DNA from: Pseudoxanthobacter soli DSM 19599
GTDB taxonomy: Bacteria; Pseudomonadota; Alphaproteobacteria; Rhizobiales; Segnochrobactraceae
DNA: 64,000 bases
Assembly (NCBI GenBank): GCA_945898215.1
Contig: CAMDHY010000005.1
Coordinates: 1-64,000, forward strand
Direction: 5' to 3'
A program made the translations under genes and the position numbers. Of the stretch, positions 15,709-34,924 are shown piece by piece (the stretch's first letter is position 1; each line of letters starts with the position of its first letter). Under the pieces are notes generated by a model that did not search any database, was not told where the DNA came from, and worked only from the letters and a program-made list of their open reading frames with translations.

Positions 15709-16138
15709 GGGTCATCCTCACTACGGGTTGGGCGGCCGGCCTCGGGCCGCAACGGCACCGGGACCAGAGAAGAGATGTCTCGTGACGGCCCGATGAACTG
15801 TCGGCCGGCGAGAGATCGGTTGCCGGATGCAGGGGCGCCGATTCGGAAGGCTCGCGGCGGATCGGCCCGTCCGAAGGGCGGGCCGACGTAACGAACCACC
15901 CCCTCGCACCGAAATGAACTAGGTCCAGCACCCTCCGGTCGCACAATGGACGCGAGACCATACAGCGGACCCGCCCCGTCGTCACCAAGCGGAGACATGA
16001 ATTTGCGTTCAGATCGATCCAACCCTCTGACGATCAACGGCGAAGCGGGTGCTGCACGGCGGCGCCGCGCGCGCTAGTGTGTTGCGCGATGAACGGGTGC
16101 CGCGGATGCGGAGATGCCCGGCACGGGAGAGAAACCAC
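15709..16138. other. divergent intergenic region between tkt and the GH15 gene
   Basis: This gap must hold promoters for both the pentose-phosphate operon and the GH15-ROK unit. No convincing promoter boxes, dyad operators or protein-coding ORFs could be fixed by eye. A 26-codon ORF from ATG 15997 is arginine-rich and unconvincing. Confidence 0.5.
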
Positions 16139-18583
16139 GTGGACGGCACAGTGATCACGCCCCCGGGCGCCCCCGGGCTCTCGCCCCGCTGGACCTCGAG
16201 CGCCAAGAGCGGCGTCGGCACGGCGATGACGGCGGCAAGCCGGATCTGGTTCACCATCAGCCACGGCATCCTCAACGAGATCTACTACCCGCGCCTCGAC
16301 ATGGCGTGCACCCGCGACCTCGGCTTCCTCGTCACCGGCCCCGACGGCTACTTCTCCGAAGAGAAGCGCGACGCGGACCACGAGGTGGCGTTGTTGGAGG
16401 AGGGCACCCCCGCCTTCCGGCTGACCAACACCGCCCGTGACGGCCGCTACCGCATCACCAAGGTGATCCTCACCGACCCGCACCGCGAGACGCTGCTGCA
16501 GGAGGTGGTGTTCGAGGCACTGGTCGGCACGCTTTCGGACTACCGGCTCTACCTCCTGGCCTCGCCCCACCTCGTCAACGCCGGCGCCCACAACACCGGC
16601 TGGGTCGGGGACTACAAGGGCACGCCTATGCTGTTCGCCTCGGGGCGGCGCGGCGCCTCGCTCGCGATCGCCTCGTCGGTGCCGTGGCCGTCGCGCTCGG
16701 CCGGCTTCGTCGGCATCTCCGACGGGTGGCAGTGCCTGACGCAGCACGGCGTGCTCGAGAAGCGCTACCAGCGGGCGGAGCACGGCAACGTCGCGATCAC
16801 CGGCGAGATCGACCTCATGGCCGCCAGCGGCCATGCGACGATCGCGCTCGGCTTCGGCGTCCGCGCCGAAGAGGCGGGCTATCGCGCCCTCTCCAGCCTG
16901 CAGGACGGCTTCGAGGTGGCGCGGCGCGACTATGTCGCCGGCTGGCGCGAGTGGCAGCGCAACCTGATGCCGCTCGATCGACCGTCCGACCGCAAGAACA
17001 TGGACCAGTACCGCGTGAGCGCCGCCGTGCTCGCCGTGCACCGCTCGCCCGCCTTCCCGGGCGCGACCATCGCCAGCCTGTCGATCCCCTGGGGCTTCAA
17101 CAAGGGCGACGAGGACCTCGGCGGCTACCATCTCGTCTGGCCGCGCGACCTCGTCGAGACGGCGGGCGGCTTTCTCGCCGCCGGCGCCATCGACGACACC
17201 AAAGCGATCCTCGGCTACCTGATGGCGATCCAGGAGGCCGACGGCCACTGGTCGCAGAACGTCTGGCTCGACGGCATGCCCTACTGGGAGGGCGTGCAAA
17301 TGGACGAGTGCGCCTTCCCGATCCTGCTCGCCGACATGCTGTGCCGCGGCGGCCACCTGTCGAAGGACGACCTCGCCCGCTTCGTGCCGATGGTCGAGCG
17401 CGCCGCCGCCTACATCGTCCAGAACGGCCCGGTGACGGGCCAGGACCGCTGGGAGGAGGACGCCGGCTACTCCCCCTTCACCCTCGCGGTGGAGATCGCC
17501 GGCCTGCTCGCCGCCGCCGACATCCTCGAGATCGCCGGCCGCGCCGACGCCGCGAACTGCCTTCGCGAGACCGCCGACACCTGGAACGACGAGATCGAGT
17601 TCTGGACCTTCGCGACCGGGACGGCGCTCGCCGAACAGCTCGGCATCTCCGGCTACTACGTGCGCATCGCCCCGCCGGAGACGTCGGACGCCGCCTCGCC
17701 GGTCGACGGCTTCGTGCCGGTGAAGAACCGGCCGCCGAGCGACATGCAGCAGCGCGCCTCGTGCCTGATCAGCCCGGACGCGCTCGCCCTCGTCCGCTTC
17801 GGGCTACGCGCCGCCGACGATCCGCGCATGGTCGATACCGTCAAGGCGATCGACTCGATGCTGAAGATCGACCTGCCGCAGGGCCCGCTCTGGTACCGCT
17901 ACAACGGCGACGGCTACGGCGAGCAGGCGGACGGCCATCCGTTCGACGGGACCGGCATCGGCCGGCCGTGGCCGCTGCTCGCCGGCGAGCGGGCCCACTA
18001 CGAACTCGCCGCCGGGCGCACGGCCGCCGCCGCGGCCCTCCTCGAGACCCTGGAGAAGTCGGCCGGGGCGGGCGGAATGCTGCCTGAGCAGGTCTGGGAC
18101 GGCGACGACATCCCGGAGCGCGAGCTCTTCCGCGGCAAGCCGTCCGGCAGCGCGATGCCGCTCGTCTGGGCCCATTCCGAGCACATCAAGCTCCTGCGCT
18201 CGCTGCGCGAGGGCCAGGTTTTCGATATGCCGCCGCAGCCGGTCGAGCGCTACCAGGTGCGCAAGGTCACTTCGCCGGTCCGCGTCTGGCGCTTCAACCA
18301 GAAGCGGCGCTCGCTGCCGATGGGCAAGCGCCTGCGCATCGAGGTGCCGAAGGCGGCCTCCGTCCGCTGGACGATCGACGAGTGGACGACCGAGAACGAC
18401 CTGTCGACGGTGACGAACAGTTTCGGCGTCCACCTCGTCGACCTGCCGATCGGCGAGCTGCCACGCGGCACGCACGTCCGCTTCACGTTCTGCTGGGCGT
18501 CGACGGGCGAGTGGGAGAACGAGGACTTCGTCGTCACCATCGACGGGGCCCAGGGCATCGCCACCATGACGGCCGCCGACTGA
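16139..18583 (+). CDS. glycoside hydrolase family 15 alpha-glucosidase (glucoamylase-like)
   Basis: Hydrolase releasing glucose from the non-reducing ends of alpha-glucans. The 814-residue product has an N-terminal glucodextranase-like beta domain (to about residue 280), a GH15 alpha/alpha barrel with VWPRDLVETAGG, QMDECAFPILLADML (general acid Glu) and LPEQVWDGDDIPE plus PLVWAHSEHIKLLRS (general base region), and a C-terminal beta domain. No signal peptide is seen, so it should act on internal glycogen or maltodextrin. The GTG at 16139 is chosen because GGGAGAG lies 7 bases upstream. The ROK kinase follows 38 bases on. Some actinobacterial GH15 proteins are trehalases, so the exact substrate is open. 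Confidence 0.93.
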   Translation: MDGTVITPPGAPGLSPRWTSSAKSGVGTAMTAASRIWFTISHGILNEIYYPRLDMACTRDLGFLVTGPDGYFSEEKRDADHEVALLEEGTPAFRLTNTARDGRYRITKVILTDPHRETLLQEVVFEALVGTLSDYRLYLLASPHLVNAGAHNTGWVGDYKGTPMLFASGRRGASLAIASSVPWPSRSAGFVGISDGWQCLTQHGVLEKRYQRAEHGNVAITGEIDLMAASGHATIALGFGVRAEEAGYRALSSLQDGFEVARRDYVAGWREWQRNLMPLDRPSDRKNMDQYRVSAAVLAVHRSPAFPGATIASLSIPWGFNKGDEDLGGYHLVWPRDLVETAGGFLAAGAIDDTKAILGYLMAIQEADGHWSQNVWLDGMPYWEGVQMDECAFPILLADMLCRGGHLSKDDLARFVPMVERAAAYIVQNGPVTGQDRWEEDAGYSPFTLAVEIAGLLAAADILEIAGRADAANCLRETADTWNDEIEFWTFATGTALAEQLGISGYYVRIAPPETSDAASPVDGFVPVKNRPPSDMQQRASCLISPDALALVRFGLRAADDPRMVDTVKAIDSMLKIDLPQGPLWYRYNGDGYGEQADGHPFDGTGIGRPWPLLAGERAHYELAAGRTAAAAALLETLEKSAGAGGMLPEQVWDGDDIPERELFRGKPSGSAMPLVWAHSEHIKLLRSLREGQVFDMPPQPVERYQVRKVTSPVRVWRFNQKRRSLPMGKRLRIEVPKAASVRWTIDEWTTENDLSTVTNSFGVHLVDLPIGELPRGTHVRFTFCWASTGEWENEDFVVTIDGAQGIATMTAAD

Positions 18584-18621
18584 AGGCCGAGCCGGACACC
18601 GCAACCAACAGGGAGGCGCCC

Positions 18622-19332
18622 GTGAGCGCTGGAATTCTCGCGATCGACGTCGGCGGCTCGGGCCTCAAGGCGGCCGTCATCGATGACACCGGCAAGCTCC
18701 TCTCCGACCGCATCCGGGTACCGACGCCGCATCCCTGTCCGCCGGCGCTGTGCGTCGAGACCCTCGCCGGACTTGTGGCGCCGCTGACGGGCTACGACCG
18801 CATCTCCATCGGCTTTCCCGGTGTCGTGCGCGAGGGCAAGGTGCTGACGGCTCCCAATCTCGGCACCGAGGCCTGGGCCGGGTTCGCGCTGGCCGAGGCG
18901 GTGTCGGCGACGCTCGACGGCCATCCGGTGCGGATGATCAACGACGCCGAGATGCAGGGCTTCGGCATCGTCAAGGGGGAGGGGCTCGAGCTCGTGGTGA
19001 CGCTCGGCACCGGCTGCGGCACGGCGCTCTTCCGGAATGGCGAACTGATGCCGCACATGGAACTCGCCCACCACCCGATCCACGAGGACAAGACCTACGA
19101 CGAGTGGCTCGGCCGGGCGGCCCTGGACGAGGCCGGGAAGAAGCACTGGAGCAAGCGCGTCCACAAGATGATCGACATCCTGTTCGTGCTGCTCCACTAC
19201 GACCACCTCTACCTCGGTGGCGGAAACGCCAAGCACGTCGAGGGCGACCTGCCGCCAACCGTCTCGGTCGCGTCGAACGAGGCGGGGCTCGAGGGCGGCG
19301 CCGCCCTCTGGCGCGCGTCCAAGCCGGCCTAG
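18622..19332 (+). CDS. ROK-family sugar kinase, polyphosphate-glucokinase-like
   Basis: Short ROK kinase (236 residues) expected to phosphorylate glucose at position 6. The phosphate-binding loop AIDVGGSGLKAAVID opens the protein, with INDAEMQGFG and LGTGCGTALFRNG in the middle and ELAHH in the glucose-binding region. It lacks the zinc-binding cysteine cluster of ordinary ROK glucokinases, a trait shared with polyphosphate glucokinases; polyphosphate use is therefore possible but unproven. The GTG at 18622 has GGGAGG 5 bases before it. It lies 38 bases after the GH15 gene, which fits a glucan to glucose to glucose 6-phosphate route. The stop codon overlaps that of the convergent ogt-like gene. 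Confidence 0.88.
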   Translation: MSAGILAIDVGGSGLKAAVIDDTGKLLSDRIRVPTPHPCPPALCVETLAGLVAPLTGYDRISIGFPGVVREGKVLTAPNLGTEAWAGFALAEAVSATLDGHPVRMINDAEMQGFGIVKGEGLELVVTLGTGCGTALFRNGELMPHMELAHHPIHEDKTYDEWLGRAALDEAGKKHWSKRVHKMIDILFVLLHYDHLYLGGGNAKHVEGDLPPTVSVASNEAGLEGGAALWRASKPA

Positions 19333-19889
19333 GCTCCGTCGATCGCCGACATGGCGGCGAACAGCGGCAGCGGCGCGTGGGCCGATTCGATCGCCAGCAG
19401 CCGCCGCTTCGTCGCGACGCCTCCCGGGGCCGAGAAGCCGCCGATCGCCCCGCCGGCGGCGAGGACGCGGTGGCAGGGCACGACGATCGGGAAGGGGTTG
19501 GCGCCGAGGGCCCGCCCGACGGCCCGCGCCGCGTCCGGTTCGCCGATCGCGCGCGCGACCTCGCCGTAGGTCCGCGTCTCGCCGGCCGGGATAGCCAGCG
19601 CCGCGGCGTAGACGCGCCGGTCGAAGTCAGGCACGCCCTCGAGGTCGAGTTCGAGGAAGCCGAAGCTCTCGGCCGCACCGGCGAGGAGCCGGCGGATCGC
19701 CGCGACCCCGGCGGCCACCGGTGCCGGCGGCTCTCCCGCCGCGGAGGCGCCGGCCCGCCGGCTGAGCGCCGCGAGAACGCTCGCGTCGGCCCCCTCCGGC
19801 AGGCAGGTCGCCACGACGTGCGTGCCCCGCCAGGCGATGCCGCACCGCCCGAGGGCGGTGTCGAAGACGAGATGGGACGCCGCGATCAT
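19329..19889 (-). CDS. methylated-DNA--protein-cysteine S-methyltransferase (Ogt type)
   Basis: DNA repair protein that moves alkyl groups from O6-alkylguanine to its own cysteine in a single-use reaction. The 186-residue product has the active-site PCHRV with Cys139 inside NPFPIVVPCHRV, the recognition helix TYGEVARAIG (108-117) with the arginine finger context ARAVGRALG, and GGAIGGFS after it. It has only the alkyltransferase part, with no Ada-type N-terminal zinc domain or AraC domain. ATG 19889 has a weak ribosome binding site. It ends by overlapping the ROK stop codon by 4 bases, tail to tail. Confidence 0.95.
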   Translation of the reverse strand: MIAASHLVFDTALGRCGIAWRGTHVVATCLPEGADASVLAALSRRAGASAAGEPPAPVAAGVAAIRRLLAGAAESFGFLELDLEGVPDFDRRVYAAALAIPAGETRTYGEVARAIGEPDAARAVGRALGANPFPIVVPCHRVLAAGGAIGGFSAPGGVATKRRLLAIESAHAPLPLFAAMSAIDGA

Positions 19890-20045
19890 CCACGAAATCT
19901 AACACAGTCGGCGCGGCGGCCGTCATGCCTCGCGGCGACCGCACCGGAGCCCACGTCGGGCTGCGGCGCTCGACGGCGGTTTCCGCGCATCCCAGCGGCT
20001 GCGGTCCGGGAGGCGTGCCGCCGTGATCCGGAACGATCCGGAACG

Positions 20046-20070
20046 GGAACGGCGGCGGACCATTGGCGTT
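20046..20070 (+). promoter_or_regulatory. EcfG-type general stress promoter candidate, with two more GGAAC copies upstream
   Basis: GGAAC (20046-20050) and CGTT (20067-20070) are 16 bases apart. This equals the consensus GGAAC-N16/17-CGTT known for EcfG/SigT sigma factors of the alphaproteobacterial general stress response. Two tandem copies of GATCCGGAAC lie just upstream (20025-20044), giving three GGAAC boxes in 21 bases. It lies 27 bases before the ATG of the small membrane peptide. Found by eye. Confidence 0.55.
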
Positions 20071-20097
20071 GTTCCCCGAGACGGCCGGAGAGCGCCC

Positions 20098-20178
20098 ATG
20101 GACATTCCCTATCCCCTTGCTATCGCCCTCGTCGCGGCCACCTACGGCTTCATCGCCGTCGGCGCATGGGTGATGTGA
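20098..20178 (+). CDS. putative 26-residue single-span membrane peptide
   Basis: A 27-codon ORF (ATG 20098 to TGA 20178). The product starts MDIPYPLAIALVAATYG and ends GFIAVGAWVM; nearly all of it after residue 5 is hydrophobic, enough for one membrane span, with an acidic N-terminal residue and no basic residue at all. GGAGAG lies 5 bases before the ATG and an EcfG-like promoter just before that, so transcription, translation start and hydrophobic product all agree. No family is recognised. Small membrane peptides often tune a larger membrane complex or the stress response. It could still be a chance ORF; conservation in related genomes would decide. Confidence 0.5.
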   Translation: MDIPYPLAIALVAATYGFIAVGAWVM

Positions 20179-20221
20179 GCGAAGGTTGCGCAGATTGCGG
20201 CCGCGACGGAGCAGCGGCCGC

Positions 20222-22021
20222 TCAGGTGACCGGCTCCGCTTGGCGGGCGCCGGGCAGGACGCGGAAGCGGCGCGTCTCCGTCGTGTAGGTCGCCTCGAAC
20301 ACCGTCGACAGGAAGACGTGATCGACGATCGCCTCTTCCTCGGTCACCTCGAGGAGCAGGAAACCACGGCGCGCGCACTCCGCGTCGATGAGGGTGTCGG
20401 CCGGCGACTTGCGGGCGCTCGAATCGACGAAGAGCGCGGCGACGAGTTCCGGCGGCACGCCGAGCAGATACTGTTCGTAGCCCGGCGAACTCACCGACGT
20501 GCAGCCGAACTCGGGGCCGACCGGCACCGGCTCCGAGTCCGTCGGCAGGACGAGGTTCGCCGTCCAGGCATTGTGGGAATCGCCGGTCAGCACGATCGGG
20601 TTCGGCGCGGCGGCGAGCGCCGAGAGCATTCTCAGCCGCGCGGTGGGGTAGCCCGTCCAGGCGTCGGCGGCGAGCGGGAAGGGCAGGCCGACTTCGCCGA
20701 GGGCGGCCAGCTGGACACCGAAGCCGGGGCCGAAGAGCTGATCGAGCAGACCGATGAACTGCGCCCGCTGCCCCTCGTCGAGCAGCGCCGTGCCGTTGAT
20801 GTCGGGGGCGTTCTGATAGAACATCAGCACTTGGTTGCCGATCAGCTGCCACGTCTGTTTTGTCGCGGCGAGCTTTCCTGCGAGCCACTCCTCCTGTTCG
20901 CTGCCAAGCAGCGTCCGCGGCCGCTCGCGATCGTGGACGTCGGCGGGGAACGGTCCCTGCGATGCGGCAGCGGCATACACGGCGAGGAGGTCGGCCGTGC
21001 CGAGTTGCTCGTTGCGGCCGGCATGCCGCGTGTCGATCATCACGAGCCGCGCAAGGTCGCCGAAGTCGAAGACGCGGTAGACCTCGTCGGGCCGGTTGCT
21101 GACCGGGTCGATGCGGTCACCGTCCTTGGGCTCGCGGATCGGCAGCCACTCGTAGAAGGCGCGGACGCCGGCCTTCTTGCGGGCGATCCAGCGCCCCTCT
21201 TCGTCGGGCTGATGGTTCTCGGCGCCCGACGTCCAGGCGTCGTTGGCGATCTCGTGGTCGTCCCAGATGTTGATGAACGGGTTGTCGCGGTGCAGCGCCT
21301 GCAGGTGCGCGTCGGTGCGGTAGAGGGCGTGGCGGGCGCGGTACTGGTCGAGCAGGACGATTTCCTCCGCCGGCAGCAGGGCGGCATCCCGGGGCTTCGG
21401 GACGAGCTCGAGGGCGGCGGCCGGGGTGGTGTAGCCATCCGGACCGGGACCGTATTCGTAGATGTAGTCGCCGAGGTGCAGCACGGCGTCGAGATCGTCG
21501 TGCTTGGCCGCCTCGCCATAGGCGTTGAAGTAGCCGAGTTCGTAGTTCGAGCAGGAGAACACCGCGAACTTCAGCCGCCGCACGCCGTCCCGCGGCAGCG
21601 TGCGGGTGCGCCCGACGGGGGACAGCTTGCCGCCGACCTCGAAGCGATAGAAGTAGGTCCTGCCCGGCTTGAGGCCGTCGACGTCGACCTTGACGGTATA
21701 GTCCTGACGCAGGCTCGCGAGGCTGCGGCCGTTGCGGACGACCCGGCGCATCTTGCGGTCTTCGGCGACCACCCACTTGACGGGGATGTTGGCGGCGGCA
21801 CCGTCCCGGGTGACGCGGGTCCAGATGACGACACGGTCGCGCAGGGGATCGCCGCTCGCTACGCCGTGTAGGAAGACCTCGTCCGCCGCGGTCGCAGGAT
21901 CGGTGACCGCGAAGGTGATCGCCGTGGCGGAGATGCCGGCGACGAGCGTCATCTGCAGGGCCTCACGGCGCGTCAGCGCCGTCCTGGCGGCCGGGTCGCG
22001 GTCTTCGGTTTCATCGCCCAT
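20222..22021 (-). CDS. PhoD-like alkaline phosphatase/phosphodiesterase, Tat-exported
   Basis: Periplasmic metallo-phosphoesterase of the PhoD family, releasing phosphate from phosphate esters. From the chosen ATG 22021 the product has 599 residues and opens with a twin-arginine signal (LTRREALQMTLVAGIS, RR at about residues 18-19), as expected for PhoD enzymes that fold with their Ca/Fe metals before export. It then shows the PhoD N-terminal beta domain (HGVASGDP) and metal-binding HLGDYIYEYG and WDDHEIANDAW, and DSHNAW later. An upstream start at 22072 would bury the Tat signal. It lies 87 bases downstream of the alpha/beta hydrolase on the same strand. No Pho box was recognised. Confidence 0.93.
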   Translation of the reverse strand: MGDETEDRDPAARTALTRREALQMTLVAGISATAITFAVTDPATAADEVFLHGVASGDPLRDRVVIWTRVTRDGAAANIPVKWVVAEDRKMRRVVRNGRSLASLRQDYTVKVDVDGLKPGRTYFYRFEVGGKLSPVGRTRTLPRDGVRRLKFAVFSCSNYELGYFNAYGEAAKHDDLDAVLHLGDYIYEYGPGPDGYTTPAAALELVPKPRDAALLPAEEIVLLDQYRARHALYRTDAHLQALHRDNPFINIWDDHEIANDAWTSGAENHQPDEEGRWIARKKAGVRAFYEWLPIREPKDGDRIDPVSNRPDEVYRVFDFGDLARLVMIDTRHAGRNEQLGTADLLAVYAAAASQGPFPADVHDRERPRTLLGSEQEEWLAGKLAATKQTWQLIGNQVLMFYQNAPDINGTALLDEGQRAQFIGLLDQLFGPGFGVQLAALGEVGLPFPLAADAWTGYPTARLRMLSALAAAPNPIVLTGDSHNAWTANLVLPTDSEPVPVGPEFGCTSVSSPGYEQYLLGVPPELVAALFVDSSARKSPADTLIDAECARRGFLLLEVTEEEAIVDHVFLSTVFEATYTTETRRFRVLPGARQAEPVT

Positions 22022-22108
22022 CGCGCGTCTCGCCTTTGTCTGGAATTCGACCAGTAAAAGGCGGAAGGGCAACGGTGCTGTGACGGTCGCGGCTAGCCGG
22101 CGGCTAGA

Positions 22109-23068
22109 CTAGCGTTCCAGGTACCACCGCACGAGGCTGTTGAAGTCGCGCCACTGGTCCATCCAGAGGTAGTGATTGGCCCGGTCGAAGACGTGGAACT
22201 GGGCGCCCGGGATGCGCTTGTAGAGCGCGAGGCCGTTGTCGACGCCCTTCACCGAGTTGTTGCCCCAGATGACCAGCGGCTGCTGCCGCAGCGTCGAGAC
22301 GACCTCGCCGATGTGCACGCCGTCGACGAGGTATTGCTCGGCGTTGCGGGTCCCGCCGTCGGCGAAGAACGCCTTCCAGGGCTCCTCCCAGACCGGCATC
22401 CACTTCGTCCCGAGCGCGACGCAGCGGTCGAGGAAGGCGTCCGGCAGGATCGAGGCGTCGAACATCATGTTCGACACCCACTTGCGCATGCCCTCCCGCG
22501 AGGTTTCCAGCGTGCTGCGGACCATCGTTCCCGGCACAAAGGCTTCAACGTAGCGCGCGCCGACGGCGGACGAGCCGATGCCGCCGGCGGGAAGCGCCAG
22601 GCTGGCGCTGTCGACCAGGATCAGCTCGCGCAGGAGGTCGGGCCGCCGCAGCGCCACGTAGGCGGCGATCCAGGCGCCCTGGGACTGGCCGAGGAGGTGG
22701 ACCGGCCCGACGCCGAGCGCTTCGATGAAGGCCAGCACGTGTTCGGCGCGCACGCGGACATGGCCGAGGTCGGCGAGATCGCGCGGCGGATCGGTGTCGC
22801 CGCCGCCGAGTTCGTCGACCGCGAACACGTGGAAGCGCTCGCCGAGCGGAACAAGCGTCGGGAACCAGCGCTCGCTGCCGAGGCCGACCTGGAAGTTCGC
22901 GCCGTGCACCAGCACCAGCGGCGGCGCTCCCGGGTCGCCGGTCTCGCGGTAGTGGGTGCGGTAGCCGTCGACGGTGATGAAGCGGCTCCGGACCGCATCC
23001 GGTTCGTCGTAGATCGTGCGCCAGCCCTGTGCATCCGCGCGTGTGCGCTCGGCGGTCGCCGCTGCCAT
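22109..23068 (-). CDS. alpha/beta-fold hydrolase
   Basis: Serine hydrolase of the alpha/beta-hydrolase fold, 319 residues, no signal peptide. The oxyanion HGANFQ (55-60), the nucleophile elbow GQSQG with Ser129, and the late catalytic His in FDRANHYLWM are present; the acid is probably in the preceding strand. The layout resembles C-C bond hydrolases of meta-cleavage pathways (HpaI/BphD-like) but no aromatic-degradation gene lies near. The substrate is unknown. ATG 23068. It may share a transcript with the PhoD gene 87 bases downstream. Confidence 0.88.
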   Translation of the reverse strand: MAAATAERTRADAQGWRTIYDEPDAVRSRFITVDGYRTHYRETGDPGAPPLVLVHGANFQVGLGSERWFPTLVPLGERFHVFAVDELGGGDTDPPRDLADLGHVRVRAEHVLAFIEALGVGPVHLLGQSQGAWIAAYVALRRPDLLRELILVDSASLALPAGGIGSSAVGARYVEAFVPGTMVRSTLETSREGMRKWVSNMMFDASILPDAFLDRCVALGTKWMPVWEEPWKAFFADGGTRNAEQYLVDGVHIGEVVSTLRQQPLVIWGNNSVKGVDNGLALYKRIPGAQFHVFDRANHYLWMDQWRDFNSLVRWYLER

Positions 23069-23167
23069 CGCGATTCCTCTCCGCGTCTTCTCCGGTCGGG
23101 GCGCACGCTAGCCGCGGTGACGCCGGCCAACAAGCCGCGAGGCTCGGTTCATGCTCGTCGGAAAGGC

Positions 23168-23241
23168 TGGCTGGGGGACTAGGATTCGAACCTAGATTAA
23201 CGGAGTCAGAGTCCGCTGTTCTACCGTTGAACTATCCCCCA
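23168..23241 (-). tRNA. tRNA-Gln, anticodon CTG
   Basis: Read on the minus strand, a full cloverleaf is seen. Acceptor TGGGGGA pairs with TCCCCCA, the discriminator is G, and the terminal CCA is encoded (23168-23170). The D arm is AGTTCAACGGTAGAACA, the anticodon stem GCGGA/TCCGT encloses loop CTCTGAC with anticodon CTG, and the T arm contains GGTTCGAATCC. It reads CAG codons. Confidence 0.97.
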
Positions 23242-23304
23242 TCCGTCACGCGACAGATGGTGCGGCGCCACCGCTGCGGGGCGCCGCGGCTGCACGGCGC
23301 GCGG

Positions 23305-23334
23305 CTTATAGCGCGGCCGCGCGGCACAGTGCAA
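23305..23334 (-). promoter_or_regulatory. candidate promoter of tRNA-Gln
   Basis: On the minus strand TTGCAC (23329-23334) and TATAAG (23305-23310) are separated by 18 bases. The -10 box is one of very few AT-rich hexamers in this extremely GC-rich stretch. The tRNA 5' end lies about 63 bases downstream. Confidence 0.45.
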
Positions 23335-23532
23335 CCACCCGTCCGCGGATGGACGCGGATTTGGCGGAGCTCGCCCGTTCGCCGCGCACGGCCCGAGCGC
23401 CGCGTGGCGGGCCGTGCGCGGGCGCGCCATCCCGCGGTGCGGCGATGACCGGTTTGTAGTGGGCCGCCGGCTTGATAGACTGTGCCGGACTGCCGGGGCT
23501 CCGGCACTGCGATTTTGGATCGGCGGTACCAC

Positions 23533-24612
23533 GTGTCTGCATACAGCGAGGACGGAACGACGGCGGTCGCGCGCGAGCCGGTCGATCGCGCGCCGGGCCG
23601 ACGACCGCCGCCCCGTGTCTACGCCGCCCTTGATCTCGGCACCAATAACTGCCGGCTCCTGATCGCCGAGCCGCGCCGTCACGGCTTCCGCGTCGTCGAC
23701 GCCTTCTCGCGGATCGTCCGCCTCGGCGAGGGCCTCGCCCGCACCGGGCGACTCAGCGAGCCGGCGATGGACCGCGCCGTCGAGGCCCTGAAGATCTGCC
23801 GCCGCAAGCTCGTCGACCGCTCGGTGTCGCGGGCCCGCCTGATCGCCACCGAGGCCTGCCGGGCGGCGATCAACGGCTCGGAGTTCCTCGCCCGCGTCAA
23901 GGATGAGGCCGAGCTCGACCTCGAGATCGTCTCCCGCGAGACCGAGGCGCGGCTTGCGGTCATCGGCTGCGCCGGCCTCGTCGACATCGAGAGCGACGGC
24001 GCCATCCTGTTCGACATCGGCGGTGGCTCGTCGGAAGTGGTCTGGATCGACCTCGCCGGCAAGGGCGCCCACCGCGGCGTCGACCGCGCCATCGGCGCCT
24101 GGGCGTCGCTGCCGGTCGGCGTCGTCACCCTCGCCGAGCGATTTGGCGGTCACGAGGTCGACGCCGCGGTGTTCGAGGCGATGGTCGCGGACGTGACACT
24201 GCGCCTCGAGGCGTTCCGCGGCGCGGCGGAGGTCGACAGGGCGGCGGCGGGCGGGCGCATCCACCTGCTCGGCACCTCCGGCACGGTGACGACCCTCGCC
24301 GGCGTCCATCTCGGGCTCGACCGCTACGACCGCCGCCGCGTCGACGGGCTCTGGCTCGGCGCCGACGAGGTCGATCAGATGGTGGCGCGCATCTGCGCCA
24401 TGACCCACGCCGACCGCATCGCGAGCCCGTGCATCGGCTTCGACCGGGCGGACCTCGTCATCGCCGGCTGCGCCATCCTCGAGGCGATCCGGCGCCGCTG
24501 GCCTTGCACGCGGCTGCGCGTCGCCGACCGTGGCCTGCGCGAGGGCATCCTCGCCGAACTCATCGACGCCGACCGCCGCGACGGCTACGGCGACCAGGAC
24601 GGCTGGCGGTGA
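23533..24612 (+). CDS. ppx: Ppx/GppA-family exopolyphosphatase/guanosine pentaphosphatase
   Basis: Actin-fold phosphatase that shortens inorganic polyphosphate or hydrolyses pppGpp. The ASKHA domains show [32 protein letters not shown], the catalytic-loop [12 protein letters not shown] and the second nucleotide loop [10 protein letters not shown]. The product is ~359 residues from the GTG at 23533; a GTG at 23482 is an alternative that adds 17 unremarkable residues. It is a short Ppx without the C-terminal HD domain of the E. coli enzyme. The stop overlaps the rlmE start (GTGA). The pairing ppx-rlmE is common in Alphaproteobacteria. Confidence 0.92.
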
Positions 24613-34605: not shown

Positions 34606-34924
34606 GGAGCATCATCTTTCGTGCGTCTGTCGCGTTCGATCGCGCGCGTGGCTGCGTGACTGTCAGTCGGCCGCCCGGTAACGCGCCGCGTGGCGTGTGT
34701 TCCTGAAGCATGTGCGGAAGCATGGCCTGACGCGCGGCCTAAGGGGCGCTGCACTGTTGCACATCGGGCGGCGCTCAATCGTGACGGCCTCGCGGCGATC
34801 GACGCCGCCCAGCGCCGCCTCGACGAATTCACCGCTCTCCACCACGCCGGGTCCGAGGTGAGCCAGCGCCGGATCGACGACCTCATCGTCCGCAGCGGCC
34901 TGCCGGGAGCGGAACAACGGCCCG
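34606..34924. other. intergenic region between the LysR gene and the OYE gene
   Basis: No recognisable gene. Both strands have open frames of about 85-105 codons, but neither has a good start, a ribosome binding site or a family resemblance. It presumably holds the OYE promoter. Confidence 0.45.

Follow-up and report, generated by a model that had tools for sequence, protein, structure and literature searches.

A putative EcfG-type promoter preceding an ORF for a 26-residue hydrophobic micropeptide in Pseudoxanthobacter soli

Positions 20025-20178 of the window (the whole stretch of 64,000 nucleotides that was analysed) are best read as an EcfG-driven gene for a single-span membrane peptide, a reading to which a probability of about 0.6 is assigned. 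The first-pass annotation had described GGAAC-N16-CGTT, two more GGAAC boxes, a GGAGAG sequence and a 26-codon ORF, and every element of this promoter, Shine-Dalgarno (SD) and ORF layout was found in its place when the sequence was read, in the order and with the spacing claimed. The locus lies in an intergenic gap of 332 bp (19890-20221) between two minus-strand genes, and the features are as follows.

19329-19889, minus strand: methylguanine-DNA methyltransferase (MGMT; PF01035)
20026-20045, plus strand: 10-bp tandem repeat ATCCGGAACG, which contains the first two GGAAC boxes (sequence)
20030-20034, plus strand: first and most upstream GGAAC box, with no -10 match at a spacing of 16-17 nt (sequence)
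20040-20044, plus strand: second GGAAC box, with CATT 16 nt on at 20061-20064 (sequence)
20046-20070, plus strand: likely EcfG-type promoter GGAAC-N16-CGTT, the third GGAAC at 20046-20050 and CGTT at 20067-20070, spacer 16 nt (motif and genomic-site statistics)
20076-20078, plus strand: predicted region of transcription initiation, 6-8 nt past the -10 (promoter geometry only)
20087-20092, plus strand: SD-like GGAGAG, 5 nt before the ATG (sequence)
20098-20178, plus strand: 26-codon ORF and stop, MDIPYPLAIALVAATYGFIAVGAWVM, probable single membrane span; ATG at 20098-20100, TGA at 20176-20178 (sequence, hydrophobicity)
20198-20224, plus strand: palindrome GCGGCCGC...GCGGCCGC forming a GC-rich stem that lacks a T-tract and lies between the stops of the ORF and of convergent phoD (sequence)
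20222-22072, minus strand: PhoD phosphatase (PF09423), convergent to the 26-codon ORF

The main GGAAC box is located 52 nt before the ATG and CGTT is separated from the ATG by 27 nt. This arrangement has the -35 and -10 elements with the 16-17 nt spacer of EcfG-type general stress response (GSR) promoters and is followed within ∼100 bp by a start codon and its SD, and the genome encodes PhyR, NepR and a presumed EcfG. As the first-pass annotation had proposed, assignment to EcfG is well supported, because the consensus, the GSR-like distance to the start codon and the presence of a PhyR-NepR-sigma locus all agree, and the element at 20046-20070 is likely to be an EcfG-type promoter. The second GGAAC box and its CATT form a possible weaker promoter, which would overlap the main one from 6 bp upstream. 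A 51-aa reading from a GTG at 20023 was dropped, as its start would precede the promoter.

PhyR (NF006623), NepR (PF18557) and an ECF sigma factor (NF009199), all scoring above cutoff, are encoded in one cluster on contig C120, and the sigma factor is taken as EcfG by its place beside nepR. In this cluster (C120:8500-13440, L125) the PhyR gene diverges from those for NepR and the ECF sigma factor, and the region that separates them carries EcfG-type sites on both strands, the usual autoregulated layout. Across the genome many EcfG sites precede genes resembling typical GSR targets, PhyR included. PLDc_N was confirmed by Pfam, an entericidin-like protein scores below its family cutoff, and further products are presumably Ku, CsbD-like and DUF892-like proteins, names given mostly by sequence resemblance.

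Taken by itself, the GGAAC-N16-CGTT motif has no statistical significance in the window, where one was found against 0.68 expected from shuffles, that is, approximately one per 64 kb at 70% GC; a relaxed GGAAC-N16-GTT match, also at chance level, is present on the minus strand at 34680-34703. Genome-wide, 74 EcfG-type sites were counted compared with 31 for the reversed pattern used as control, and so ∼40% of the genomic matches may be chance. These counts favour the explanation that motif and ORF have no connection with EcfG regulation, which is nevertheless improbable given the intergenic position of the site and the order of promoter, SD and ATG. SD+ATG ORFs with 18 codons or more, starting 8-65 nt after the site, were found downstream of 24 of the 74 EcfG sites but of only one of 30 reversed-pattern sites.

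The hydrophobicity of the ORF argues in the same direction. The 26 residues have a GRAVY of 1.52 and a single charged side chain (Asp2), residues 3-26 being uncharged, and no Pfam or NCBIfam family was matched above cutoff, in agreement with the earlier description of a hydrophobic micropeptide without known family; with fewer than 50 aa, one hydrophobic span and little else, it has the form of a small membrane peptide. Null rates derive from a 464-kb portion of the 4.78 Mb genome, equal to 928 kb when both strands are counted, in which six SD+ATG ORFs of 18-45 aa had a GRAVY of at least 1.0 and this ORF alone reached at least 1.4. When GTG and TTG starts were allowed, two other ORFs exceeded its hydrophobicity, both without an EcfG motif. 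At the rate of hydrophobic ATG micro-ORFs ∼0.02 would be expected behind all 74 EcfG sites and two were seen, the 26-aa ORF and a 23-aa peptide on contig C10, a comparison made after the ORF was known and to be read as a guide, with no formal p-value. Codon log-odds were +6.3 in the ORF frame, whereas the five remaining frames scored between -7 and -39, and the per-codon score ranked 37th among 273 short SD+ATG ORFs, many of the higher-ranked of which are probably real short genes or gene fragments. Codon usage thus weakly favours coding.

The 26-aa ORF is the sole credible plus-strand candidate in the gap for the promoter to serve. Predictions for its surroundings gave neither a sigma-70-type promoter nor an intrinsic terminator; the palindromic stem at 20198-20224, which was not called in the intrinsic-terminator prediction, is a possible 3′ end of the transcript. 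Lacking a terminator, the transcript would extend as antisense RNA over the 3′ end of phoD. The main rival explanation is the following: a real EcfG promoter would generate an RNA without a functional peptide, either non-coding or antisense to phoD, and the ORF would be incidental. There is precedent in the seven non-coding sRNAs reported to be activated by S. meliloti RpoE2 (PMC6180224). Yet the predicted folding of the RNA did not exceed that of shuffled sequences (z 0.92), a result more in keeping with an mRNA than with a structured RNA, the one Rfam match (E 0.1) was far under its gathering score, and a well-spaced SD followed by a very hydrophobic ORF is not expected in an sRNA. An EcfG-driven RNA of this kind is considered unlikely.

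The neighbourhood (16049-24612) includes a ROK-family kinase (ending at 19332), PhoD and a Ppx/GppA phosphatase (23482-24612) within a few kb, and a GH15-type glucodextranase at 16049-18583. The common theme of the region is possibly phosphate or polyphosphate, together with glucan.

Conservation of the ORF in relatives, which the first-pass annotation had named as a check, was not found. By tblastn the peptide had no homologue at E 0.05 among 396 further genomes from the order, and at E 5 the matches were at chance level and nearly all within larger frames; the small-frame matches (e.g. G293, G359, G386, G389 and G732) were read and none had a matching micropeptide together with an EcfG motif. 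Nothing credible was found by tblastn in 384 genomes of the class. Two other genera of the family contained neither a homologue nor an equivalent at the 114 EcfG sites examined in them, the ORF was missing next to phoD in Hansschlegelia, Chelatococcus and Methylopila, whose PhoD genes are 63-67% identical, comparison of the gap DNA with 100 relatives returned short chance matches only, and a plasmid collection gave no useful match. The method is sensitive to peptides this short, as a 23-aa control was found down to ∼50% identity, and the 26-aa ORF therefore appears to be an orphan of this genus or species. Absence of conservation is a point in favour both of a chance association and of an RNA without functional peptide.

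The control was the peptide MKGILLWLIGIPIPIIILIYLLF (23 aa), which is preceded in the same genome by an EcfG motif at C10:4156-4180 (locus C10:4156-4285, L021 and L168; relatives L167-L196 and L344-L372). It belongs to a family, here termed IPIP, of 23-28 aa with the motif L-W-x2-G-x-P-x-P and a single hydrophobic span. MKGILLWLIGIPIPIIILIYLLF was detected in 65 of 199 order genomes at 50-91% identity. All 29 order copies inspected had an ATG and an SD-like sequence, and in 24 of these 29 GGAAC-N16/17-NGTT was present with GGAAC 55-75 nt before the ATG. A profile search of the class found the family in 57 of 385 genomes; among 25 class-sample copies, of which two (L347 and L352) belong to the order itself and the remainder come from outside it, 12 had an EcfG motif within 110 nt, compared with 2.6% of background windows from the same loci. 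No Pfam or NCBIfam model exists for the family and the sequence of MKGILLWLIGIPIPIIILIYLLF was not found in a literature text search. The peptide may be SEP6 of S. meliloti. The IPIP family shows that EcfG-driven micropeptides exist, with the layout described in the first-pass annotation. The conserved IPIP peptide is a stronger case than the 26-aa peptide, because its promoter layout is common to many genera, its sequence is highly conserved and the searched family libraries hold no model for it. In a relative from the same bacterial family as P. soli, a 49-aa membrane protein of the DUF3096 type is encoded 82 nt downstream of an EcfG site (C1:1925029-1925554; L337, G001) and is probably another small membrane protein in the stress regulon.

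Descent of the 26-aa peptide from this family, as a degenerate or far-diverged member, was also considered. Both peptides are EcfG-associated, short and hydrophobic, and IPxP is common to both when they are aligned; however, the family invariants L6, W7 and G10 precede IPxP at a point where the 26-aa peptide has only MD, the L-W-x2-G-x-P-x-P motif is absent from it, identity is 27% and an intact family copy is present in the same genome on contig C10. Such a relationship is highly improbable.

The preferred reading, an EcfG-driven membrane peptide, may be set out as follows. The 26-aa gene would belong to the general stress response regulon as a monocistronic unit; in stressed cells PhyR would remove NepR from EcfG, and EcfG-RNA polymerase would start at ∼20077 from GGAAC-N16-CGTT. 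The short transcript, with its Shine-Dalgarno sequence, would be translated to a 26-residue peptide, which would enter the inner membrane post-translationally as a single span and act as a small stress peptide in the style of YohP, either altering membrane properties or binding a larger membrane protein. We infer transcription, EcfG dependence, translation, insertion and function from the locus, the peptide itself being plausible from its sequence. The second EcfG micropeptide in the genome, on contig C10, indicates that such a class exists.

Small membrane proteins are common targets of EcfG, SigT and RpoE2. The regulons of these sigma factors (ECF15) in the Alphaproteobacteria share with the 26-aa locus GGAAC-N16-CGTT, an SD and ATG close downstream and a genome with PhyR, NepR and the ECF sigma factor; they differ in that the product here is a 26-aa orphan, whose dependence on EcfG is predicted. 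The IPIP family and the 26-aa gene both have an EcfG motif ∼50-75 nt before an SD-ATG micropeptide with a single hydrophobic span. YohP of E. coli has 27 aa, is linked to stress and is inserted post-translationally by SRP with SecYEG or YidC; its production reduces membrane potential and fluidity, and it has glycines at G15 and G21, of which G15 is required for dimerisation (PMC7549839, PMC12719787). The 26-aa peptide resembles YohP in length, single hydrophobic span, presumed stress expression and the placing of glycines in the later half of its span (G17 and G22), but it has no flanking lysines, would be under a different sigma factor, and its translation and insertion are predicted; the likeness is one of size and setting rather than homology, and no sequence relationship is claimed. 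SEP6 has fewer than 30 aa and a predicted span, was found in the P100 fraction and is conserved in Hyphomicrobiales (PMC10117765). It is like the 26-aa peptide in size, membrane prediction and as an unannotated Hyphomicrobiales peptide, but it may be a member of the IPIP family instead of a counterpart of the 26-aa peptide.

The 26-aa locus is ordinary in kind, and its interest is as a pointer to a neglected class. To our knowledge most EcfG target genes have no assigned function, and ORFs of fewer than 30 codons are usually skipped by gene callers, and the stress regulon may therefore be partly invisible. We suggest tentatively, at slightly under even odds, that the general stress regulons of Alphaproteobacteria routinely hold stand-alone genes for membrane peptides of fewer than 30 residues, comprising at least one family of wide conservation (IPIP) and lineage-specific ones like the 26-aa peptide, which would be functional counterparts of YohP missed by gene callers. 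Among such overlooked stress-regulon peptides the 26-aa peptide would be a lineage-specific candidate.
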